Part shown: positions 28,773 through 40,945 of the stretch, in pieces | Layout: every line of letters starts with the position of its first letter | How positions within the stretch are numbered: position 1 is the stretch's first letter | NCBI RefSeq assembly: GCF_039645585.1 | Contig: NZ_CP147915.1 | Location: forward strand, 992,001 to 1,056,000 | Direction: 5' to 3' | Source: Sulfurimonas sp. HSL-1656 | GTDB taxonomy: Bacteria; Campylobacterota; Campylobacteria; Campylobacterales; Sulfurimonadaceae | DNA length: 64,000 bases | Program-made: the position numbers and the translations under genes | The notes under the pieces: generated by a model | What the model was told of the DNA's origin: nothing | Databases searched by the model: none | Seen by the model: the letters and a program-made list of their open reading frames with translations, nothing else

Positions 28773-29414
28773 ATGCAATTAGGCTTCCTGGTTGATCTGC
28801 ATCTGTGTATGGGATGTAAGGGTTGTGAGATCGCCTGTAAAGTGGAAAACCAAGTTCCGCTTTCGACATGGCGTCTTCGTGTTAAATATGTGGACGTAGG
28901 GACGTTCCCGGAGACAAAACGGACGTTTACCCCGCTGCGCTGTAACCACTGTCACAATGCGCCGTGTGAGCGCATCTGTCCGGTCAGCGCGCTGCACTAC
29001 ATCGACAACGGTATCGTGAACATTGACAAAGAGCGCTGTATCGGTTGTGCGGGCTGTGTCATGGCATGTCCGTACGGTGCGATCTACATCGATCCGGAAA
29101 CACAGACGGCGGACAAATGTACGTACTGTGCCCACCGTATCGCTTCCAGCCTTATGCCGGCGTGTGTTGTTGCCTGTCCGGTCGAAGCGAACATCTTCGG
29201 CGACCTGGACGATCCGACGTCCAACATCAGCAAGTACATCCAGAACCATCAGGGTGATGTACAGGTCCGCAAACCGGAAAAAGGTACGGATCCGCACCAC
29301 TACTATGTCGGCGGCGGCAACGTCACCCTCAATCCTCTGGCGTCGTTCAGAGTCGAAGGTCACCAGCTCTTCAACAAGCTGACGACACACATGCCGGTAG
29401 GAGGACACCACTAA
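28773..29414 (+). CDS. PsrB/PhsB-type four-cluster ferredoxin subunit
   Basis: A 213-residue electron-transfer subunit. Four [4Fe-4S] motifs are visible, the first at Cys12, 15, 18 and 22, then CNHCHNAPCERICP, CIGCAGCVMACP and the CTYCAHR region with CVVACP. It has no signal peptide and would cross the membrane bound to the Tat-exported catalytic subunit, as in the DMSO-reductase family. It passes electrons between the NrfD membrane subunit and the molybdenum enzyme. The B-C-A gene order is distinctive. Confidence 0.9.
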   Translation: MQLGFLVDLHLCMGCKGCEIACKVENQVPLSTWRLRVKYVDVGTFPETKRTFTPLRCNHCHNAPCERICPVSALHYIDNGIVNIDKERCIGCAGCVMACPYGAIYIDPETQTADKCTYCAHRIASSLMPACVVACPVEANIFGDLDDPTSNISKYIQNHQGDVQVRKPEKGTDPHHYYVGGGNVTLNPLASFRVEGHQLFNKLTTHMPVGGHH

Positions 29415-30313
29415 TGGTACATGAAGCTGTAGCTGCGACAAACGCCGTCGTCACACTCGACGCCGGACTCCCGGGTATCGTCTGGGGATGGATCATTACA
29501 ATGAACATGTGGGCGAAAAGCATCGGTACCGGTGTTATTTTCATGCTCTTCTACCTGTTGAAGCGCTACCCGGAAGCGGCTGGAAGCCTGCGCTTCCCGG
29601 TGACGGTGGTCTCCATCGTCTTCATCCATATTTTCCTGTTCTTTACGGTCATCGACTTGCACCAGATGTTCCGCTTCTGGCACATCTTCTTCCACCCGCA
29701 CTGGACGTCGGCGATTACCGTCGGTGCCTGGATCGTTACGATCCTCGTCCTCGTGCTGTTCGGTATGGCGTTTGCGACCTTCATCAAAAAGGACAACGCG
29801 CTTTTTGACAAGCTCCTGGTATGGGCGGTCATCCTGGCAGTCCCTGTCACGCTTTACACCGCGGCTATCATGGCAGAAGCGACGGCACGCGAACTGTGGC
29901 AGATGCCGACGGAAGCGGCACAGATGATCCTGGCGGCGACCCTGACGGGTTCCGCGACGCTCCTGCTGATGGGCGGCAACCTGCCGTACGAAGCGAAGCG
30001 CGACCTCGCGGTCGTTCTCGGACTCTCCGCGCTGGCGGCATTCATCCTCTATATGTCCGAGCTGGTTTTCGGTCCGATCAAAGCAGAAGAGGTTGCGGCA
30101 ACACTTGAAGCGGTCAAAGGCCACGGCGAGTATACGACGATGTTCTGGGTCGGTCAGGTCCTGGCCTTCATTGCACCGTTCGTCCTTGTCATCCTGAGCG
30201 TAACAAACCGCTCTGCAGGCCTGCTGAAAGTTGCAGCACTCTCTGCGATCGTGGGACTCTGGATCGTCAAGCACGTCTGGCTTGTCATTCCGCAACTCCT
30301 GCCAATGAGCTAA
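29414..30313 (+). CDS. NrfD/PsrC-type quinone-interacting membrane subunit
   Basis: A 299-residue integral membrane protein with about eight helices, of the NrfD/PsrC family, which exchanges electrons with menaquinone. Recognisable are WGWIITMNMWAKSIGTGVIF (helix 1), the HIFLFFTVIDLHQMFRFWH region, FHPHWTSAITVGAWIV and a C-terminal helix ending LVIPQLLPMS. It shares one base with the ferredoxin stop and is 16 bases from the catalytic subunit gene. Confidence 0.92.
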   Translation: MVHEAVAATNAVVTLDAGLPGIVWGWIITMNMWAKSIGTGVIFMLFYLLKRYPEAAGSLRFPVTVVSIVFIHIFLFFTVIDLHQMFRFWHIFFHPHWTSAITVGAWIVTILVLVLFGMAFATFIKKDNALFDKLLVWAVILAVPVTLYTAAIMAEATARELWQMPTEAAQMILAATLTGSATLLLMGGNLPYEAKRDLAVVLGLSALAAFILYMSELVFGPIKAEEVAATLEAVKGHGEYTTMFWVGQVLAFIAPFVLVILSVTNRSAGLLKVAALSAIVGLWIVKHVWLVIPQLLPMS

Positions 30314-30329: not shown

Positions 30330-33300
30330 ATGTATAAAGAAAGCAGAAGAACATTTCTCAAAGGCGCGGCATTTACGGTTGCCGGCGCCGCTGTAGCCAA
30401 AGGGGTTTTCACGACGGACGCCATCGCGGATTCCGTTGAAGAAAGCAAATTCACCAACACACCGGACTCACTCTCCTTCTACCCGCCGCTCGAGCAGTGG
30501 GATGATTTCAAAGAGCTCGACGGCGACGACTGGAAGCGCGGCGGTATCGCCCGCAAAGGCGTCCAGAGCGCAGAGAACCCGGACGGTATCTATGTCAATG
30601 ATTTCGCGATCGTCCCGACAGCATGTTCCAACTGTGAGGCCTCCTGTGGTCTGACGGCGTGGATCGACAAGAAGTCCTTCACGGTCAAAAAATACATGGG
30701 TAACCCGCTGCACCCGGGCTCCCGCGGCCGTAACTGTGCCAAAGGTTACGCGACACAGTCACAGATGTACGATCCGGACCGCCTGGCGTTCCCGATCAAG
30801 CGTGCACCGGGCTCCAAGCGCGGTGAAGGTAAATGGATCCGTACGACCTGGGACGAGGCGATGAGCACCATCGGTAAAAAGATGAACGATACGCTCAAAA
30901 CAGGCGACGAGCTCTCCCGCAAGTCCCTGATGTTCCACGTCGGCCGTCCGAACGAGAACGGCTTCACGGGTCAGGTCTGGACGACGTTCAAGCAGGACGC
31001 CTTCAACTCCCACACCAACATCTGTTCCTCCGGCGGTCGTACACCGACGATCCAGTGGGCGAACGATGACCGTACGAGTCCGGACTGGGCGAACGCAAAG
31101 CTCGTCTTCCTGAACTCCTCGCACGCAGCGGATGCCGGCCACTACTTCCAGCAGTCCGCCGGTTTCATCGCCGACGCACGTAAAAAAGGCGCACGCCTGG
31201 TCGTTATGGACCCGCGTATGTCAAACTCCGCCGGTATGGCGGACCTCTGGATCGCGGCATGGCCGGGAACAGAGCCGGTTGTCTACCTCTACCTTGCCAA
31301 CCGTATCCTCCAGGAAGGGCAGGTTGACAAGAAATTCGTCAAGAAGTGGTTCAACTGGGAAACCCTGATGAAGAACCGCAACTACCTGCAGTTCATGGTT
31401 GAGAAGGGCTATATCTCCAAAATGCCTGCGGACAAGAGCTTCGAAAGCTTCCTGGAAGTCATGAAAGAGATGTATGCGCCGTATACACTCGAATATGCCG
31501 TCAAAGAGACGCATGTTCCGGCGTACAAACTCGAGAAACTCTACGAGATGTTCATCTGGGCCGGCGATGCGATCAGCTCCTACTTCTGGCGTGCGGCTGC
31601 TTCCGGCAACCGCGGCGGCTGGATGTCCGGCCGTACGGGTTACCTTGCCATCGCACTGCGCGGTGCGATCGGTACCGTCGGCGGTACCTTCTTCCACCAC
31701 TGGCACGTTATTTCCGTCGCCGGTAAAGGCGGTTCCGCGACTGTCGGCCAGGGCCGCAGCGGTTCAAACGTCCCGAAAGTCGACGTCTGGAACGAACTGA
31801 CGTGGCCGCCGGAGTGGCCGCTCTCCACATACGAGATGTCCTACCTCCTGCCGCACCTCCTCAGCGACGTCGAGTGGCAGGAAAAATGGAAGAAACGCGG
31901 CCTGAACGTTCCGCAGAAACTCTCTGTCTGGATCCCGCGTATGTACAACCCGGTCTGGATCAACCCGGACGGTTTCCGCTGGCTGGAAGTCCTCAAAGAC
32001 GAAAGCAAGATGGAACTGACGTTCAACCTGTCACCGACATGGTCCGAGACAAACTGGCACGTCGACTACGTCCTGCCGGTCGGTCTGGCGGGCGAACGCC
32101 ACGACCAGCACTCCGAAGCGACGATGCCGGCGCGCTGGACCTCTTTCCGCCAGCCGGTCATGCGTGTTGCGCTTGAAAAAGCGGGCTGGAAACCGAAGAA
32201 CCCGAACCGTGCAACGCTCGAAGCGCACATCAAAGCGGGTCTGGGCGAAGTCTGGGAAGAGAACGAATTCTGGTTCGAAATGGGCTTCAAATACGTTGAC
32301 CCTGACGGAAGCCTCGGCATCAAGAAGATGTGGGAATCCAAGCGCAACCCGGGCCAGGCGGTTACGATCGCCGAGTGGTACGACGCGGCGTTCGGCGACA
32401 ACCTGCCGAACCTGTACAAGACGGCCACGACCGACCCGCGCTACAAAGACAGCGAATACCCGGTCTACAACTTCATGCGTGACCACGGTGCATGGCTCGA
32501 AGAGAGCAACATCTACCACGCGCAGGAACGCGAGATAAAAGAAGAGGGCGACAACCTGATCGCCCACGGTCACAAGTTCAACAAGCACCACGTCGAGAAA
32601 GACGACGAGACGGGTGTACTCTACGCGGAAGCCCACGGCGACGCCTGGAAGTACAAAGACGGCAAACAGCCGATCGGTATCGAAATCGACGGCAAGAAGA
32701 TGGACGGTTTCGCGACACTCGACAAGAAACTCGACTTCTTCTCCGAGTGGCTTGCAGACGAGTGGAAATGGCCGGAGTACGCGGTACCGTTCTACCCGCG
32801 TAACGACGAAGAGAAAGCAGCGATGCCGCACATCGTGTCTCATGTCAACCACATGTACATGAAAGCGGACAACGAATTTGCGCTCAACACGGTCTTCCGT
32901 CTGCCGTACAACATCCACACGCGTTCTGCGAACTCCAAGCACCTGATGGAGATCTCCCAGAACCACGACCCGATCTGGATCAACACGCAGGATGCGAAGC
33001 GCATGGGCTTCAAGCGCGGTGACGCGATCCGTGTCCGCATTACGGATACGGTCTCCGGCCTCGACAGCGGTTACTTCGTCGCAATGGCGGTACCGACCGA
33101 AGGTCAGATGCCGGGCGTCCTCGCCTGTTCACACCACGGCGGCCGCTGGAAGCTGAAAAACTCCGTCACGATCCCGAACGGTGTTTCCGACGGTAAAGTC
33201 GAAGACATCACCGTCGGTTCCGGCGACATGACTGATCCGGCATTCCTGCAGGCCTCACCGGAAGGTGCGGGTACGGCTGACGGTGCGATCAAAGTCGCTG

Positions 33301-33749
33301 ATTATGACGGTACGGCCGGCATGAACAGCTTCGGTGTTCCGACGGCAGAGATGCAGATGGACGGTAAAACGGGTAAACTCAAATACGTTGAGGGTATCCA
33401 TCCGTTCCACACCAAGCGTTTCGCAGCGTACAACAAAGACAGCGACAACATCTGGTGGGACGGCCTTTCCGGCTCCTGGCAGAATGCCGTCGCTCCGACG
33501 CACCCGGACCCGATCTCCGGTATGCACTGCTGGCACCAGAAAGTTATCCTGGAGCCTGCGCAGCCGGGTGACAAAATCGGTGATATCGTTGTCAACTACG
33601 AGAACAACTTTAAAACCTATCAGGCATGGCGTGATGAACTCACGCGCGGTCTGGACGCCAATTCCGAGTTCCGCCGCCCGCCGCACATCAAGCGTCCGTG
33701 GGTACCGCTCAACGAAAAAGCGTACCGCGTCGATATCAAAGACGTTTGA
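30330..33749 (+). CDS. Tat-exported molybdopterin oxidoreductase, PsrA-like, 1139 aa
   Basis: The catalytic subunit of a periplasmic complex iron-sulfur molybdoenzyme. The Tat signal is SRRTFLKGAAF at the N-terminus. The [4Fe-4S] site is Cys99, 102, 106 and 136; the probable molybdenum ligand is Cys232 in HTNICSSGGRTP, as in PsrA, PhsA and periplasmic nitrate reductase. A C-terminal molybdopterin dinucleotide-binding domain begins near 850 (IHTRSANSKHLME). It is much longer than classical PsrA (about 760), with inserts at about 600-830 and 920-1050. Polysulfide, sulfur, tetrathionate or arsenic oxyanions are candidate substrates; sequence alone does not decide. Confidence 0.88.
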   Translation: MYKESRRTFLKGAAFTVAGAAVAKGVFTTDAIADSVEESKFTNTPDSLSFYPPLEQWDDFKELDGDDWKRGGIARKGVQSAENPDGIYVNDFAIVPTACSNCEASCGLTAWIDKKSFTVKKYMGNPLHPGSRGRNCAKGYATQSQMYDPDRLAFPIKRAPGSKRGEGKWIRTTWDEAMSTIGKKMNDTLKTGDELSRKSLMFHVGRPNENGFTGQVWTTFKQDAFNSHTNICSSGGRTPTIQWANDDRTSPDWANAKLVFLNSSHAADAGHYFQQSAGFIADARKKGARLVVMDPRMSNSAGMADLWIAAWPGTEPVVYLYLANRILQEGQVDKKFVKKWFNWETLMKNRNYLQFMVEKGYISKMPADKSFESFLEVMKEMYAPYTLEYAVKETHVPAYKLEKLYEMFIWAGDAISSYFWRAAASGNRGGWMSGRTGYLAIALRGAIGTVGGTFFHHWHVISVAGKGGSATVGQGRSGSNVPKVDVWNELTWPPEWPLSTYEMSYLLPHLLSDVEWQEKWKKRGLNVPQKLSVWIPRMYNPVWINPDGFRWLEVLKDESKMELTFNLSPTWSETNWHVDYVLPVGLAGERHDQHSEATMPARWTSFRQPVMRVALEKAGWKPKNPNRATLEAHIKAGLGEVWEENEFWFEMGFKYVDPDGSLGIKKMWESKRNPGQAVTIAEWYDAAFGDNLPNLYKTATTDPRYKDSEYPVYNFMRDHGAWLEESNIYHAQEREIKEEGDNLIAHGHKFNKHHVEKDDETGVLYAEAHGDAWKYKDGKQPIGIEIDGKKMDGFATLDKKLDFFSEWLADEWKWPEYAVPFYPRNDEEKAAMPHIVSHVNHMYMKADNEFALNTVFRLPYNIHTRSANSKHLMEISQNHDPIWINTQDAKRMGFKRGDAIRVRITDTVSGLDSGYFVAMAVPTEGQMPGVLACSHHGGRWKLKNSVTIPNGVSDGKVEDITVGSGDMTDPAFLQASPEGAGTADGAIKVADYDGTAGMNSFGVPTAEMQMDGKTGKLKYVEGIHPFHTKRFAAYNKDSDNIWWDGLSGSWQNAVAPTHPDPISGMHCWHQKVILEPAQPGDKIGDIVVNYENNFKTYQAWRDELTRGLDANSEFRRPPHIKRPWVPLNEKAYRVDIKDV

Positions 33750-33826: not shown

Positions 33827-34444
33827 ATGGAACAGACACAAGCACGCAGCAATATCTACGCACTTCTTTCAAGAGTGTTGATGCAGGAAGCCGATACGGA
33901 ACTTATAGACATTATCAACAACGATGACGCCATTTTGGAGATGATGCCGAACTACAAGATCTGGGAAGCACGCATGACTCTTCAAAGCAGTGAACTGATC
34001 GAGAAGCATCTGAACCCCGATTTCACCAACGTCTCCCTGCTTCACCTGATCCCCTACGAGACCTTCTATACCCGCGAGGACCAGATGATCGAGACGGGGG
34101 GTGCCAACCCGGTGACCGACATCTATTCGGCGTACGACTTCATGGTCGATTTCGAAGCGGCGCGGGTCGTTTCGGCCGACCATATCGGGGTCGAACTGGA
34201 GTTCATGCACCATCTTTGCGAAGCACAGATCAAGGCGATGAACGACAATGACGGCGAAGCGGTGGATGAACTGATGGAGGTGCAACGCACCTTCCTCGAG
34301 AAGCACCTTGTGCGCTGGGCGCCGATGTACCTGCTCAATATGAAGCACGAGTCCCGTACACCGCTCTACTATGATGCGGCGGACATGACGCTGGAGTTCC
34401 TCCTCAGCGACTACCAGTACCTCAGCGAGACAGCGGGAGCCTGA
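33827..34444 (+). CDS. TorD/DmsD-type molybdoenzyme chaperone
   Basis: A 205-residue all-helical protein of the TorD family, which binds the Tat signal and holds the catalytic subunit until cofactor is inserted. Family features are the N-terminal RSNIYALLSRVLMQ, PYETFYTRED and the IGVELEFMHHLCEAQ core near residue 125, with FLEKHLVRWAPMYLLNM after it. It is encoded downstream of the molybdoenzyme and overlaps the next gene (TGATG). Confidence 0.87.
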   Translation: MEQTQARSNIYALLSRVLMQEADTELIDIINNDDAILEMMPNYKIWEARMTLQSSELIEKHLNPDFTNVSLLHLIPYETFYTREDQMIETGGANPVTDIYSAYDFMVDFEAARVVSADHIGVELEFMHHLCEAQIKAMNDNDGEAVDELMEVQRTFLEKHLVRWAPMYLLNMKHESRTPLYYDAADMTLEFLLSDYQYLSETAGA

Positions 34445-35547
34445 TGGCCGGCATTACCCTCAACCCGGGCCGCTGTGTTCGCCAGCTGAGCACCTTCAGC
34501 ACCTGTAACAGCTGTATCACGGCGTGCCCGACCGATGCACTGGTAGCGACGGAGAATGTCCCCGCCGTCAACCAGGCGGCCTGTGTGGGCTGCGGCGGCT
34601 GTGCGGGTGCCTGCCCGACCGAAGCGATCCGTGTCGACGATTTCAGCGCGACGGAGTTCTTCTTTGCGTTCGTCGGTGACGGAGACAACCTCGTCTCCTG
34701 CCGCAAAAACGTTCCCTGCATCGCCGCACTGAGCGTCGACCACCTCTTTTCGCTCGCGTCGCTCAAAGGGGGCATCCGCCTCGACACCGGCCACTGCGAG
34801 GGGTGCGAGATCGCCTCAACCTGCCGCCCGCAGTTCGAGGCGCGCGCCGAAGAGGCCTCCTACCTGCTCGAGGCGATGATGAGCAGTGCGGAGATCGTGT
34901 TCGAAGATGCCGCCTATGCAGCGGAAACACCCGGGGAAGAGGGCGACCGCCGCGGTTTCCTGCGGGCGTTCAACCTCAAAACACTGGCCGAGGGTAAAGC
35001 AAAGTTCGAGCGCGAGGTGGAGACGGCAACGGATGAACTGATCCGCCACCAGCTCGATTCAACGGCGATCGCCCAGCTGCGGACCAAGACGCTGCCGGAC
35101 AAGCGCAAACTGCTCTTTACCGCGATGAAACGGGCTGAAAAGCCCTCAGAGTACCACGTCGTCGATGCTTCCGAACTGACGCTGGCGTCCCAGAAGCTGA
35201 TGGACGGCGACAAATGTACGGCGTGCCAGATGTGTTACCGTATCTGCCCGACGGGGGCGCTCACCAGCGACATCAAGGGTGCCAAGATCGATTTCGACGC
35301 AATGATGTGCGTACGCTGCCACCTCTGCCATGACGTCTGCGAACCGGATGCCCTGACGCTGTCGCCGTCGTTCAATATGAAAGAGCTCTTCGAACCGACG
35401 CAGCAGCGCCTCGTGACTTTTTCCGTGCGTAACTGCGACGAATGCGGGAACCCCTTTACCTCCCTCGCCGGGGAGCGGGTCTGCCACCGCTGCCGGATCG
35501 AGGAGGAGGAAGCGCGCACCCTCTGGGGCATAGGAGATGATGAGTGA
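34444..35547 (+). CDS. Multi-[4Fe-4S] protein of the molybdoenzyme accessory unit
   Basis: A 367-residue cytoplasmic protein with two ferredoxin halves. The N-terminal half has STCNSCITACP and CVGCGGCAGACP, then CRKNVPC and CEGCEIASTC; the C-terminal half has CTACQMCYRICP and CVRCHLCHDVC, and ends with a zinc-ribbon-like CDEC...CHRC. A helical, cysteine-free linker (about 140-255) joins them. No signal peptide is seen, so it probably acts during assembly or electron supply in the cytoplasm. It overlaps both neighbours, so it belongs to this system; its exact role is unknown. Confidence 0.82.
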   Translation: MAGITLNPGRCVRQLSTFSTCNSCITACPTDALVATENVPAVNQAACVGCGGCAGACPTEAIRVDDFSATEFFFAFVGDGDNLVSCRKNVPCIAALSVDHLFSLASLKGGIRLDTGHCEGCEIASTCRPQFEARAEEASYLLEAMMSSAEIVFEDAAYAAETPGEEGDRRGFLRAFNLKTLAEGKAKFEREVETATDELIRHQLDSTAIAQLRTKTLPDKRKLLFTAMKRAEKPSEYHVVDASELTLASQKLMDGDKCTACQMCYRICPTGALTSDIKGAKIDFDAMMCVRCHLCHDVCEPDALTLSPSFNMKELFEPTQQRLVTFSVRNCDECGNPFTSLAGERVCHRCRIEEEEARTLWGIGDDE

Positions 35548-36305
35548 ACGAAGCGAACCAGATAACGAACACGACGCGGCTCTTCGGGTTCATTGCCGAA
35601 GAGGCGCAGCAGAACCGTTTTGCAGTGACCCTGAACAAACGGTTCAAGGCGAGCGGGGACGACGCGATGATGATCCCGATGAACATCCGTCCCGACGATT
35701 TCTACTTTACGCTTTCAAACATGAAGCAGTCGCACGTCAACGGGGCGGTGATCGCAACGGAGTACCAGGACCAGGTGCTCGAAATCGTCGATACCGCTTC
35801 GGCACTGTGCGAACGCACGGGGATTTGCGATACCGTCGTCGTTGAGAACGGGCAGATGCGCGGCGAGCTTCTCCTGCCGATTGCCCTGAAACAGATGGCG
35901 GAAAAAAGCGGTGCGGAGCGTGTGGCCCTCATTGGGGCTACCCCGCTGGCCGGGGCTTTAGCCCTGACACTCGAAGGGAAAACGGTTGCGATGTTCGACC
36001 CGTGGATCGAGGACCTGATGGCGCTGCAGCAGCGCCTCGGCGCAGACTTGGACATTAACCGGCTTGCTGAGGGCATGGCCGTCGATCTCTCCGGGTATGA
36101 CATGGTAATCGACCTGTCGGCACTGGGCGACCTTTCGATGGTCAGTGCCCTGCCGGCGCTCAATGTCGACCTCAAACAGCCCCGCCAGCCGTCGGCACTG
36201 CGCCAGCGCTGCGTCGAACTGGACCGCGCCTATAGCGGCTATGAGAGTCTGCTGGACATCATGACCGAGACCGTTTATAATTATTTGACAAAGGAAAACA
36301 GATGA
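35544..36305 (+). CDS. Shikimate dehydrogenase-like protein lacking catalytic residues
   Basis: A 253-residue protein that follows the AroE plan by eye: LFGFIAEEAQQNRFAVTLNK replaces the substrate loop, GAVIATEYQDQVLEIVD replaces the conserved NVTxPxK strand, and DTVVVENGQMRGELLLPI replaces the NTDxxG segment. Then comes a Rossmann-like half (RVALIGATPLAGALAL, KTVAMFDP). The catalytic Lys and Asp of AroE are absent, so it is probably not a shikimate dehydrogenase. The GTG start overlaps the FeS gene and its end overlaps the next gene, so it may serve as a folding or binding factor for the molybdoenzyme. Confidence 0.5.
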   Translation: MNEANQITNTTRLFGFIAEEAQQNRFAVTLNKRFKASGDDAMMIPMNIRPDDFYFTLSNMKQSHVNGAVIATEYQDQVLEIVDTASALCERTGICDTVVVENGQMRGELLLPIALKQMAEKSGAERVALIGATPLAGALALTLEGKTVAMFDPWIEDLMALQQRLGADLDINRLAEGMAVDLSGYDMVIDLSALGDLSMVSALPALNVDLKQPRQPSALRQRCVELDRAYSGYESLLDIMTETVYNYLTKENR

Positions 36306-36811
36306 ACCCACATGATCTCGACGATCTCAAAGCGGAGTTCGACAAGTTCGTCCGCGAAAAATGTTCGACCGATGAAAGCGGCAACCCCGTCGAAAACGAG
36401 CGCGATGCCGGTGATGCCGTCGACGACGAGCCCGTTCCGGCTTTTGTCGATGAACTGGAAAACAAGCTGTTGGCACCGGCACTCAGCGGCGTCTATCTCT
36501 CGCGTATCGATATCAAACGCATCTCCCAGGCCCTGGACGAATCGCTGCCGATCAAAGAGCGCAAAAAGATGGTCAAGGCGCTGTTCCGCCATACGAACTC
36601 CAAAGCATGGCTGCGCGGTGCCTTCGACGAGATCAACAACCACATCAACGGGCGTATCCTGATCTACCGTGAGCTCTCAGAGACCTTCCCGGCGACGGCG
36701 CCGATTTTCAGCGAGCACATTGCCAAAGCGGAGAAGACGAAAAAGATGTTCGACCAGATCGTTGATGACTTCGAGGAGATCGAACCGACCGACGAACCGA
36801 TGATGGTGTGA
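36302..36811 (+). CDS. Hypothetical protein, last gene of the molybdoenzyme accessory unit
   Basis: I do not recognise this 169-residue protein. It is acidic in the first 60 residues and helical after that, with no signal peptide, membrane segment or cysteines. ATG 36302 overlaps the stop of the AroE-like gene (ATGA), so it is translated with the molybdoenzyme accessory set. A role in maturation or regulation is plausible only from this coupling. Confidence 0.65.
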   Translation: MNPHDLDDLKAEFDKFVREKCSTDESGNPVENERDAGDAVDDEPVPAFVDELENKLLAPALSGVYLSRIDIKRISQALDESLPIKERKKMVKALFRHTNSKAWLRGAFDEINNHINGRILIYRELSETFPATAPIFSEHIAKAEKTKKMFDQIVDDFEEIEPTDEPMMV

Positions 36812-36896: not shown

Positions 36897-37208
36897 ATGA
36901 TCAATAAAGGTATTCTTGCCCTTGCATGTATCGGAGCACTCTGTGTCTTCCCGGTCCAGGCGAAAAACGACAAACACGGCGATCTTCCCCCGGGGCTGCA
37001 GAAAAAAGCCCGCAGCGGCAAGCCGCTGCCTCCGGGCTGGCAGAAAAAGCTCCAAAGAGGGCAGCGGATCGACCGTACCGTGTTTGAACAGGAAGCCGTG
37101 ATTATTGCTCCCCGTGACCGTGACGGTCTCCTGACCGTCCGTATCGATGGCAAAGTGGCCCGGGTCGCTGAAAAAACGCTGGAAATCGTCGATATTATCC
37201 AGCGGTAA
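36897..37208 (+). CDS. Small exported RcnB-like protein
   Basis: A 103-residue protein with a signal peptide (MINKGILALACIGALCVFPVQA). Two short repeats, LPPGLQKKARSGKPLPPGWQ then KKLQRGQRID, are typical of RcnB-related and DUF1236-like periplasmic proteins. RcnB itself affects nickel/cobalt homeostasis in E. coli; only the short signature is shared here, so the function is open. A GGAAGGAG site precedes the start by six bases and TATAGT-like -10 sequence lies in the gap before it. Confidence 0.68.
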   Translation: MINKGILALACIGALCVFPVQAKNDKHGDLPPGLQKKARSGKPLPPGWQKKLQRGQRIDRTVFEQEAVIIAPRDRDGLLTVRIDGKVARVAEKTLEIVDIIQR

Positions 37209-37287: not shown

Positions 37288-38181
37288 ATGAGTTTTGAAT
37301 TTCCCTGGCTGTTTTTGCTGTTGCCGCCGTTGTGGCACTGCCTCTACCGCTGCCGTGAACGCCTGAGCCCGCGCTATTTCGTCCATCTCGAACTCTTTGC
37401 CGTACGGCGGGGATGGTTCAAATGGCTCTGGCTGCTGCGCTACGTTGCGGTGCTGCTGCTGGTCACAGCAATCGCCTCTCCCGTCACGATCGATCAGGAT
37501 GACCCGCTCAACCGCCAGGGGGTCGATGTCGTGCTGGCGCTCGATGCCAGCGGGTCGATGGGGGCATCGGGTTTTGACCCCAAAAGCCGGGAGAGTCGTT
37601 TCGATATCGCCAGAAGGATCGCCAAACACTTTATTGTGGATCGTATAGGCGATAACGCCGGGGTCGTCCTCTTCGGCGACTTCGCCTTTATCGCTTCGCC
37701 CGTGACCTATGAAAAAACCGTTGTCGCGGAGATGATGGATTACCTCGTTTACGGCATGGCGGGACAGAACACGGCCATCGGCGAGGGGATCGCCATGGGC
37801 GTCAGGGCACTTGAAGATTCCAAGGCGCTCTCCAAGGTCCTTGTCCTGCTGACCGACGGAGAACACAACAGCGGGCGGGTGTCGCCCAAAGCGGCGACGG
37901 AGCTGGCCGTCAAACACGGCATCCGCATCTATACGGTCGGGATGGGACAGAAGGGAGAGTTCGACGAAGCAATGCTTCGCCGGATCGCCGACGAGAGCGG
38001 AGGTGCTTTCTTTGCCGCCTATGACCCGGAAGCCCTGGCCGCGGTTTATGAAGCGATCGATGCCCTGGAGCGTTCCAGAATCAAGTCGGAACGGATCCTG
38101 CGTAAAGAGTACTATTACACCTGGCCGCTGGCAATGGGCGTGTTGCTGCTCTTCTACCTCTGGCGCAGGGAGGCCCTGTGA
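37288..38181 (+). CDS. batA: BatA-type VWA-domain membrane protein
   Basis: A 297-residue protein with N-terminal membrane segments (about 5-20 and 45-65), a VWA domain with the metal site DASGS at 86-90 and LTDGEHNSG near 190, and a C-terminal helix. Bat proteins form membrane complexes with a MoxR ATPase and occur with aerotolerance or envelope stress functions. It overlaps the next VWA gene by four bases. No MoxR or DUF58 gene is adjacent upstream, where they usually are. Confidence 0.87.
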   Translation: MSFEFPWLFLLLPPLWHCLYRCRERLSPRYFVHLELFAVRRGWFKWLWLLRYVAVLLLVTAIASPVTIDQDDPLNRQGVDVVLALDASGSMGASGFDPKSRESRFDIARRIAKHFIVDRIGDNAGVVLFGDFAFIASPVTYEKTVVAEMMDYLVYGMAGQNTAIGEGIAMGVRALEDSKALSKVLVLLTDGEHNSGRVSPKAATELAVKHGIRIYTVGMGQKGEFDEAMLRRIADESGGAFFAAYDPEALAAVYEAIDALERSRIKSERILRKEYYYTWPLAMGVLLLFYLWRREAL

Positions 38182-39086
38182 TGACGTTTATGGCCCCGCT
38201 TTGGCTCTGGCTGCTGCTCTTCTTCGGACTCTATCTCGTCTACCGCCGTCAGCGGGGCGGCGGTCTCGTCTGGAGCGTACGGAGTATCTTTCTAATGTCG
38301 TCGATCGTCTTCGCTATTCTCGCACTGGCCCGCCCGGTGGCGATGCAGGAGCCGGTGTCGATCGAGCAGCGCGGCAGCGACGTCATCTTTGCCATCGACA
38401 TCTCCCGCTCCATGCAGGCGACCGATATCGCCCCGAGCCGCCTGGAGGCGGCGAAGCAACTGCTCTCGTCGGTGGTGGAAGCCGACGATACGAACCGCTT
38501 CGGCGTCCTGGCGTTTACGACGAATCCGGTGATCCTGTCGCCGCTGACCCGCGACGACGAACTGCTGCTGCACCTCTTTTCGGGTCTGGACACGTCGATG
38601 GTCATGACCCGGGGGACGGAAATAGGCGGTGCGTTGGAGCTGGCGCGCAAACTGTCGCGTTCCGAGCATCCCATCGTCGTTCTCCTGACGGACGGCGGCG
38701 ATAGTCTGGGGTACTCCCAGGAGGCGGCGAAGGCGCGCGCAGCCGGGCTGATCGTCAACGTCGTCATGCTGGCGACGTCGTCGGGGGGCACGCTGAAAGC
38801 CGAAGACGGGAAACTGCTGCGCAACGAGGAGGGCGGCATCGTCGTGACGGCACGCAACAGTGCGATCGATGCGATCGCCGACGCGACCGGCGGCGTCGTG
38901 ATCGACGGGGCGGATGCGGGGGCGCTGGCGGCAGCCATCAAAGCCCAGGGGATGGCGGATATCCGCGAAAGACGGAAGATTATCCTCTTCCGGGAGTATT
39001 TTTACGTTCCACTTGCACTGGCACTGCTGTTCGCCATGCTGGGTATGACGGATGTCATTTCACGGATCGGAGGGCGTCGTGCGTAA
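38178..39086 (+). CDS. batB: BatB-type VWA-domain membrane protein
   Basis: A 302-residue paralogue of the preceding protein with the same plan: two N-terminal membrane helices, a VWA domain with metal site DISRS at 74-78, TRGTEIGGAL and LLTDGGDSLGY, and a C-terminal helix. A pair of VWA proteins followed by a TPR protein and a Bat D-like protein is the usual operon order. It overlaps batA and the TPR gene at both ends. Confidence 0.87.
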   Translation: MMTFMAPLWLWLLLFFGLYLVYRRQRGGGLVWSVRSIFLMSSIVFAILALARPVAMQEPVSIEQRGSDVIFAIDISRSMQATDIAPSRLEAAKQLLSSVVEADDTNRFGVLAFTTNPVILSPLTRDDELLLHLFSGLDTSMVMTRGTEIGGALELARKLSRSEHPIVVLLTDGGDSLGYSQEAAKARAAGLIVNVVMLATSSGGTLKAEDGKLLRNEEGGIVVTARNSAIDAIADATGGVVIDGADAGALAAAIKAQGMADIRERRKIILFREYFYVPLALALLFAMLGMTDVISRIGGRRA

Positions 39087-39846
39087 CCGTCTGGGCCATA
39101 TTACCTCTCTACCCGCCGTCACTGCATCCCTCCTGGTGCAGGGATGGCGCGTGATCTGCGCCAGCAAAGGGCACCGGGCGCTGCTCCCGCTCCTGATCGG
39201 TTTCTTTGCGGCGCTGTTGTCGGTACTGCTGCTGCTACTGTGGAACGCGACGCTGCCGTACCGGGCGGCAGAGGCCTATGAAGCGGCCGACTTCAACCGC
39301 AGTGCCGCGCTCTATGCGCAGATGGAGGGGGCGGCGGCACTGTATGATGCGGGCAATGCCTGGTACCGTACAGGCGAGTATGAACGCGCACTGCAGTACT
39401 ACAGCGCGCTGGAGCAGCATGACGGCAGCTTCGGCGCGTCGGTATGGTTCAACCGGGGCAATGCGCTTGTCCGTCTCAAGGAGTTCGCGAAAGCGCGCGA
39501 GGCCTTTGCCCGTTCCCTGGCGCTGCACTACGATGCGGAAGCGCTCGCGAACATGATGCACATCCTGGGAGCCGAGGAACAGGACCATATGCTCACCGGA
39601 CGGCAGGAGGGCAAGAAGCGCGCCCAGGACCAGGAGACCGAACGCAGCGAAGGCGCTCCCAAGAAAGAGGGCGGAGGCAGCAACCAGCAAAGCAGTGCCG
39701 AACGCCGCTCCGGGGCCGGAAGCCAGGGAAAAAAGGTGGAGCGCGAGGAGCAGCTGGAGTTCTCGAACAAAGGCAACAGCCGCCTGAGCTCAAAACAGTA
39801 TGAACTGATCAATCAAAGGAGCGTACATGAAACGAACCCCTGGTAG
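39079..39846 (+). CDS. batC: BatC-like TPR membrane protein
   Basis: From GTG 39079, supported by GGAGGG four bases upstream, the product has 255 residues. One membrane helix lies near 40-60, then two or three TPR repeats (AAALYDAGNAWYRTGEYERA, SVWFNRGNALVRLKEF), and a charged, low-complexity tail rich in Glu, Lys, Ser and Gln. TPR proteins in this operon position are scaffolds for the Bat complex. It overlaps batB and batD. Confidence 0.8.
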   Translation: MRNRLGHITSLPAVTASLLVQGWRVICASKGHRALLPLLIGFFAALLSVLLLLLWNATLPYRAAEAYEAADFNRSAALYAQMEGAAALYDAGNAWYRTGEYERALQYYSALEQHDGSFGASVWFNRGNALVRLKEFAKAREAFARSLALHYDAEALANMMHILGAEEQDHMLTGRQEGKKRAQDQETERSEGAPKKEGGGSNQQSSAERRSGAGSQGKKVEREEQLEFSNKGNSRLSSKQYELINQRSVHETNPW

Positions 39847-40945
39847 AGGGCTGCTCTGGACACTGCTGCTTCTGCCGCTGCTCTCATGGGCCGTGGAAAC
39901 AACCTACACCTGGAGTGCCGCGGCGACGAAAACGCGTGTAGCGCAGCACGAAGCCTTTGCCGTCGAGTATACCTGCCGCTTTGATTCGGAAGCCTATGCC
40001 TACATCATCGCTTTCGATCCGGTGAAGGAGACGGAGGCGTACCGCATCGAACCGCAGAACAGCGAGGAGCAGATCGTCGACGGGCATCGGGTCAACCGTT
40101 ACCGCTTTACCGTTTTCCCGAAAACAGCCGGGCCCCTCTCGCTGGCGTTTCATGCTACGATGGAGCATACGACGAAGGCCTCCATCGAAAACGCGGTGAT
40201 GGGGCGGGACAACGTCGAAAAGCTTGACTACACGGCCCGTACCGTCTCGCTGCCCGTGATCGACGTCGTAGTGGCACCGCAGCAGACGCCTTATGCCGGG
40301 CATTTGACCCTCTCGCTCAAGGTTGACCGCGAAACGGTCGATGCCTTTACGCCGATACAGGTGGCTGTAAGCCTGGAGGGCTACGGAAACCTCGATACGA
40401 TGGCGCCCTTTGCACTGAATATCCCGGGTGCCCGGCAGTTTACCGACGGAGACGAAAAAACGCTTCGTCTCGGCGATAACGGCTACGAAGGGAGTATCGG
40501 CCAGCAGTTCGCTATCGTCTCAGACCGCAATTTCACGGTACCGGCCCTGCAGCTCTCCTATTACGACACGGAGCAGCAACGGACGGTGACACTGACCACC
40601 GAACCCCATACCGTAGCCGTCCGTTCCGCCGCTGCCGCCATTGCAGATAAAGAGAAGGCTGCACCGTCCGGCGAAGCGTCAATGCAGTGGAACGCGTCGT
40701 GGCTGCACCTGCTGCTGGCACTGCTGGCGGGTGTCGTTATCGGGCGCTTCCTGCTGCCCGTACGGGTGGAGTCGGAAGCCGCCTCACTTCCGGAGAAACT
40801 CAGACGCTGCAGTGATCCGAAACGCTTTGCCGCCTACCTGGCCATGGCGGATGCCGAGGGGTACCGGGAGATGATCGATGCGATCGAGGCGAAGCTGAAG
40901 GCGGGGGAGAAGGTCGACCTCTCCACGTACAAACGGCAGCTCTGA
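39827..40945 (+). CDS. batD: BatD-like exported membrane protein
   Basis: A 372-residue protein with a signal peptide, two beta-rich regions (about 30-270) and one C-terminal membrane helix (about 293-312) with a short cytoplasmic tail. This is the layout of BatD-family proteins, although sequence conservation is low. It overlaps batC by 20 bases and closes the operon. Confidence 0.78.
   Translation: MKRTPGRGLLWTLLLLPLLSWAVETTYTWSAAATKTRVAQHEAFAVEYTCRFDSEAYAYIIAFDPVKETEAYRIEPQNSEEQIVDGHRVNRYRFTVFPKTAGPLSLAFHATMEHTTKASIENAVMGRDNVEKLDYTARTVSLPVIDVVVAPQQTPYAGHLTLSLKVDRETVDAFTPIQVAVSLEGYGNLDTMAPFALNIPGARQFTDGDEKTLRLGDNGYEGSIGQQFAIVSDRNFTVPALQLSYYDTEQQRTVTLTTEPHTVAVRSAAAAIADKEKAAPSGEASMQWNASWLHLLLALLAGVVIGRFLLPVRVESEAASLPEKLRRCSDPKRFAAYLAMADAEGYREMIDAIEAKLKAGEKVDLSTYKRQL

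Follow-up and report, generated by a model that had tools for sequence, protein, structure and literature searches.

An AroE-fold pseudoenzyme that accompanies a Tat-exported molybdoenzyme and its chaperone in Campylobacterota

What is a protein resembling shikimate dehydrogenase (AroE) doing among the chaperone genes of a molybdoenzyme operon? The question is raised by a gene, here called AROEL, in a 64,000-nt stretch of the Sulfurimonas sp. HSL-1656 genome, which in its entirety is referred to as the window. The G+C content of the window was 56–59%, and high-GC Sulfurimonadaceae have been described (PMC12029903). Below, the fold of AROEL, the state of its active site and the genes that accompany it across genomes are examined in turn, and the roles that it might have are weighed.

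The gene module and the fold of AROEL

AROEL was found in a module with the gene order Fe–S subunit, NrfD subunit, MopA, TorD, Fd367, AROEL and p169 (Table 1), and this order confirmed the original prediction that the gene belongs to a TorD-chaperone unit of a molybdoenzyme operon. It starts with a GTG codon with the Shine–Dalgarno sequence AGGAG 7 nt upstream, and the overlaps that had been proposed on both sides were present, with 4 nt shared with the stop of Fd367 (GTGA) and 4 nt with the start of p169 (ATGA). The closest solved relative of MopA is the Thermus polysulfide/thiosulfate reductase (2vpw, E 2.4e-32). Every full-length MopA orthologue examined carried the Tat motif, and nearly all carried the cysteine in 'HTNICS[SA]'. 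In Fd367, the C-terminal motifs C258–268 and C289–299 were conserved in at least 93% of 96 sequences, and the N-terminal pair C11/C21–28 and C47–57 was conserved only in part. The last protein, p169, gave an AF2 model with a pLDDT of 87 and no match in the PDB at E ≤ 0.001 (best E 0.65 with Foldseek and 0.12 by profile), and residues P59, G63, Y65, R68, D70, K72, R87 and M90 were invariant in alignment A3.

Table 1. Features of the module, with positions counted from the first nucleotide of the window
Feature	Position	Strand	Length (aa)	Evidence
DmsB/TtrB-like iron–sulfur subunit of molybdoenzyme	28773..29414	+	213	NCBIfam TtrB 205.7 bits (below cut-off), Fer4_11, conserved order
NrfD/PsrC-like membrane subunit	29414..30313	+	299	Pfam NrfD E 2e-10
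MopA, Tat-exported catalytic molybdopterin subunit	30330..33749	+	1139	Pfam Molybdopterin; SRRTFLKG signal, Cys in HTNICSSGG
TorD/NarJ-family chaperone	33827..34444	+	205	Pfam Nitrate_red_del E 8e-17; NCBIfam TorD
Fd367, ferredoxin	34444..35547	+	367	Pfam Fer4 families; two pairs of 4Fe-4S motifs and C-terminal CxxC...CxxC
AROEL, AroE-fold pseudoenzyme	35544..36305	+	253	Profile matches, AF2 model, structural alignment, joint alignment with AroEs
AROEL N-terminal (shikimate_dh_N-type) domain	35544..35873	+	residues 1–110	Retained by every homologue; contains N31, N47, E73, D96
AROEL Rossmann-like domain	35874..36230	+	residues 111–229	Dispensable in several lineages; glycine loop degenerate (G131, T133, P134)
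AROEL C-terminal helix	36231..36302	+	residues 230–253	AF2 prediction, H233–249
p169 (final gene of the module), helical, unassigned to any family	36302..36811	+		No Pfam match; alignment A3; AF2

Downstream of the module, a small secreted-looking protein of 103 aa with a weak likeness to the CigR family (NCBIfam E 1e-6) is encoded at 36897–37208, followed at 37288–40945 by von Willebrand factor genes of BatA/BatB type, together with a TPR gene and one resembling BatD. In several further genera, too, the module adjoins similar Bat clusters, whose orientation varies, and a common role of the cluster and the module in protein assembly is possible.

In profile searches, AROEL matched the NCBIfam aroE family with an E-value of 1.2e-10 and 40.9 bits, which is below the curated cut-off of 252, and Pfam Shikimate_dh_N with an E-value of 1.1e-3 and a score of 19.7, again below the cut-off of 27. 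The match to M. jannaschii AroE (MjAroE, 1nvt) had an E-value of 5.8e-7. Judged by these matches, AROEL is a distant relative of AroE, with a homology that is significant though under the curated cut-offs. An AF2 model built from 56 relatives (pLDDT 95.2, pTM 0.90) showed a complete two-domain AroE fold, which aligned to 4omu/3o8q with a VIA Z of 24.1 over 237–238 residues and an rmsd of 2.8. The best structural matches were nearly all shikimate or quinate dehydrogenases, and the top Foldseek match was 5-ketofructose reductase. No different fold emerged from the structural comparison, so that the predicted structure upholds the AroE layout claimed earlier and settles the fold as far as prediction can do so. 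AROEL is alike in its two-domain fold to AroE, YdiB, Ael1 and 5-ketofructose reductase, with 10–19% identity over 229–250 aligned residues. The all-helical NarJ/TorD fold was absent from AROEL, for which the model gave the alpha/beta AroE fold, and the TorD of the module is a separate gene. We also considered whether AROEL might be the sole AroE of the genome, and this was rejected because a true AroE is encoded at another site (G000:C1:1377804–1378577). A separate true AroE was present in 59 of the 61 family genomes.

An active site lost and new residues fixed

The active site was compared in a joint alignment of 56 AROEL homologues and 25 true AroEs from the same bacterial family. Residue K65 of AroE corresponded to Q75 in AROEL, a position occupied mostly by Q, V, T or R among the 56 homologues and by K in only two, and D102 corresponded to L111, at a position that was unconserved across the homologues. 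The catalytic lysine and aspartate, both of which had been reported as missing from the sequence in the window, were thus not conserved in the family either. Most of the shikimate ligands were replaced as well. Ser14, Ser16, Thr61, Asn86 and Gln244 of AroE were N24, F26, A71, D96 and M240 in AROEL, and Ser16, Asn59, Thr61, Thr101 and Gln244 were replaced in nearly all 56 homologues; position 14 was still Ser in half of them. The Asn of the 'HN' motif (N31) was retained, as in the AroE-fold enzymes. The NADP loop GxGGxA had become GATPLA and was degenerate across the homologues, although G131 and A136 were conserved wherever the Rossmann domain was present. The Arg of the NRT motif, which contacts the NADP phosphate in AroE, corresponded to P153 in AROEL and to mostly acidic residues in the other homologues.

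The losses were accompanied by new fixed residues. Pro63 of AroE was replaced by Glu (E73) in 54 of the 56 homologues and in 84 of the 87 sequences of a wider set, and Asn86 by Asp (D96) in 55 of the 56, with position 96 variable in the most diverged short forms (f18). N47 was found in 86 of the 87 sequences. Conservation was now concentrated in strand beta2 and helix alpha2 ('MMIPMNIRxDD') and no longer in the catalytic loops: strand beta2 (residues 41–48) was the most conserved stretch of AROEL, with an entropy of 0.31 compared to 0.65 in AroE, and the loops corresponding to NVTxPxK and GYNTD were among the least conserved (1.86 and 2.11 compared to 0.46 and 0.27 in AroE). The new fixed residues, E73, N47 and usually D96, map to the former pocket or its vicinity and to beta2–alpha2. 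Since the replacements were fixed and conservation had relocated to beta2 and alpha2, the alignment pattern suggests a change of function, not decay. AROEL was the fastest-evolving gene of the module, and a dN/dS of 0.11–0.135 over the whole gene, similar in both domains, indicated purifying selection.

Association with MopA and deletion of the Rossmann domain

MopA was found in 85 of 397 Campylobacteria genomes, and AROEL was present in 80 of the 83 MopA genomes in which this could be judged. The two left out were G422, where only a piece of MopA is present at the end of a contig, and G042, in which the contig ends inside Fd367. AROEL was gone from three f6 genomes (G179, G286 and G287), in which Fd367 was directly followed by p169 and the other six genes were kept. 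Among the 397 genomes no AROEL was found without MopA, except in G421 and G236. These were rejected as cases of independence because both contigs end inside Fd367; no MopA was found elsewhere in either draft. In G002, G030 and G341, AROEL, TorD and MopA were missing together. A Fisher test on the counts (80/3/0/310) gave a p-value of about 1e-80, which shows only the strength of the pattern because the genomes are related. The expectation that the gene always accompanies this type of molybdoenzyme therefore held in one direction, as AROEL was never independent of MopA, and failed in the other, as the three f6 genomes have MopA without AROEL. With the two broken contigs set aside, the association was exclusive in that no independent homologue was found in the 397 genomes. 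In a one-motif scan of genome contigs, the taxon, where given, was Campylobacterota among the best 80 of 144 loci, and the relatives named there were Sulfurimonas, Sulfuricurvum and Helicobacteraceae/Campylobacterales MAGs; a distant homologue may exist in another phylum.

The same seven-gene order was found in four family-level groups of Campylobacterota (f1, f4, f6 and f18), and f5 had a split form. In part of genus g2, in f5 and in two f6 genera, the operon was divided into [Fe–S, NrfD, MopA] and [TorD, Fd367, AROEL, p169], and the genomes with a split operon kept both halves, with MopA elsewhere in the genome. Because the operon splits in several lineages, the chaperone half can be recognized as a unit, as seen at loci L121, L120, L123 and L143–L145. 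The split operons retained TorD, Fd367, AROEL and p169 together, showing that AROEL goes with the chaperone set and not with the structural genes. That this separate operon still accompanies MopA argues for a functional link and places AROEL among the proteins that assist a Tat-exported enzyme in the cytoplasm. Occurring only with its molybdoenzyme and moving with its chaperone are what is expected of an accessory protein, and AROEL behaved in this way in 80 of the 83 judgeable genomes.

In 35 of 86 sequences AROEL was only 116–170 aa long and consisted of the N-terminal domain and a short tail, without a Rossmann domain. In most short loci p169 began within a few bases of the stop of the short gene, and thus the DNA for the Rossmann domain was deleted and had not merely gone out of frame; frameshifts and mis-assemblies were rejected as explanations on the same grounds. 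Exceptions were a few f18 short loci with gaps of about 170–230 nt. On a tree of TorD, Fd367 and p169, full and short states changed at least five times, and at least six Rossmann losses were needed if regain was forbidden, counts that serve as a guide because the tree was unrooted and came from a quick search. The short forms had a dN/dS of 0.07–0.16 and were still under purifying selection, which places the function shared by all forms in the N-terminal domain. AROEL at L045 and L073, in g6 genomes, was 230–238 aa long with the C-terminal part of the Rossmann domain shortened, and is a possible intermediate toward the half-size form. At L054 (G028:C95:14878–15612), in a draft genome, the AROEL reading frame was interrupted by a TAG codon and could not be recovered intact, owing either to recent pseudogenization or to a mistake in the assembly.

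Possible roles of AROEL

The repeated deletion of the Rossmann domain bears directly on the suggestion that AROEL binds nucleotides. NAD(P)-dependent catalysis or nucleotide binding by this domain is disfavoured as the shared role, and that part of the original prediction did not stand as a conserved function. We regard it as unlikely that AROEL is a neofunctionalised oxidoreductase or a nucleotide (NAD(P)/GMP)-binding protein whose Rossmann domain holds a dinucleotide or the nucleotide of bis-MGD, like XdhC/PaoD or FdhD. A full Rossmann domain is present in most f1 and all f4 sequences, with a dN/dS of 0.12–0.16 in the genus of the window, the two loop residues G131 and A136 are conserved with it, the match to 5-ketofructose reductase illustrates that the fold can switch substrate, and known maturation factors with Rossmann-like domains bind Moco or GDP (PMC10609526). 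Yet the sequences without the domain keep both gene order and selection, and the glycine loop and the position of the NADP-phosphate Arg are degenerate. We are similarly doubtful that Fd367, AROEL and p169, instead of being a maturation unit, transfer electrons as a cytoplasmic complex, either feeding the respiratory enzyme or drawing from it. The several 4Fe-4S motifs of Fd367, conserved in 96 sequences, and an AroE fold that could bind NAD(P)H would fit such a complex, but MopA is Tat-exported and so out of direct reach of cytoplasmic proteins, TorD accompanies the set even where MopA does not, and the NAD(P) domain of AROEL is dispensable.

It is improbable that AROEL regulates the module by sensing a ligand. 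QutR-type repressors, which are fungal, multidomain transcriptional regulators, offer a precedent for reusing a shikimate-pathway fold without its catalysis, although they have no link to molybdoenzymes, and the pocket-bearing domain of AROEL has been kept with new conserved residues. AROEL itself has no DNA-binding or signalling domain, and its gene runs in the direction of the maturation genes and overlaps them, with no regulator adjoining. Very improbable is a passenger or decaying AroE paralogue without a role. The fast evolution of AROEL, its repeated shortening, its three losses and the in-frame stop in one draft genome (G028) would suit a passenger, but dN/dS was about 0.1 for full and short forms alike, the gene persisted across five family-level groups and through operon splits, and the Rossmann losses were mostly clean deletions that left the gene beside p169.

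We therefore lean towards reading AROEL as a dead descendant of AroE that serves as a dedicated cytoplasmic, non-catalytic accessory protein, with a binding or scaffold function, for the Tat-exported MopA of the polysulfide/thiosulfate-reductase type. Unlike AroE-fold enzymes, it is linked to a molybdoenzyme and not to aromatic biosynthesis. A part in maturation is the best reading of its neighbours, TorD and a multi-cluster ferredoxin, together with the Tat signal of MopA; the chaperone and the ferredoxin point to maturation without proving it. The Tat pathway exports folded proteins. As MopA carries a Tat motif, its cofactor assembly must take place before export, with the Mo and Fe–S cofactors inserted in the cytoplasm. 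The N-terminal domain of AROEL, with a rebuilt pocket or face, could then bind either a small ligand or one of the proteins Fd367, TorD, p169 and apo-MopA, and hold the MopA precursor ready, while TorD would guard the Tat signal and Fd367 would supply or guard Fe–S clusters. Counting against an accessory role, G179, G286 and G287 keep MopA, TorD, Fd367 and p169 without AROEL, no other gene of the module evolves as fast, and position 96 varies in the most diverged f18 short forms. Since three genomes lost it, AROEL would be helpful rather than indispensable; p169 was retained even there.

The proposed arrangement would be much like that in which NapF and NapD serve NapA, as cytoplasmic proteins that act before Tat export of a molybdoenzyme (PMC10609526). 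NapF, a ferredoxin with four labile clusters, helps NapA (PMC10609526), and Fd367 is similar to it in its several 4Fe-4S motifs. Some species lack or can dispense with NapF and NapL, and the cofactor insertion step before Tat export is guarded by TorD-type chaperones (PMC10609526). The system described here differs in that NapD has a ferredoxin fold and AROEL an AroE fold, the enzyme is of the polysulfide/thiosulfate-reductase type, and TorD is also present. XdhC/PaoD and FdhD, which insert Moco, are likewise molybdoenzyme-specific accessory proteins with Rossmann-like domains (PMC10609526), but no sequence relation to AROEL was found and the Rossmann domain is the dispensable half of AROEL. 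Periplasmic polysulfide reductases have been described without a dedicated chaperone gene in the operon (PMC10609526). The PsrABC and psrA1B1CDE clusters of Campylobacterota share the Mo catalytic, Fe–S and NrfD subunits, and the part of that report available to us describes a periplasmic psr cluster with extra D and E genes in a Sulfurimonas isolate, which may be the operon studied here, and does not mention an AroE-like gene (PMC10045233). Among open-access papers, none was found that joins AroE-like proteins with molybdoenzyme maturation, in agreement with the novelty claimed at the outset. The recruitment of dead enzymes and molybdoenzyme-specific accessory proteins are both known; what is new is their combination and the repeated loss of the cofactor domain.

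A more specific version, which we put forward tentatively, is that the substrate-binding domain of shikimate dehydrogenase was converted into a factor dedicated to molybdoenzyme maturation, with N31, N47, E73 and D96 in its remodelled pocket or interface, and works in a four-protein TorD–ferredoxin–AROEL–p169 assembly platform, the cofactor domain having been repeatedly shed. If this is true, AROEL represents a new class of system-specific accessory protein, and p169 a second new one. The operon offers a four-gene candidate maturation set for an enzyme related to polysulfide reductase that is widespread in sulfur-cycling Campylobacterota. AROEL also shows how an enzyme decays in a natural experiment, in which the catalytic dyad was lost everywhere and the cofactor domain was shed several times while selection continued to act on a remade substrate domain, and the existence of lineages with a full, a half or no AROEL makes its function directly testable.
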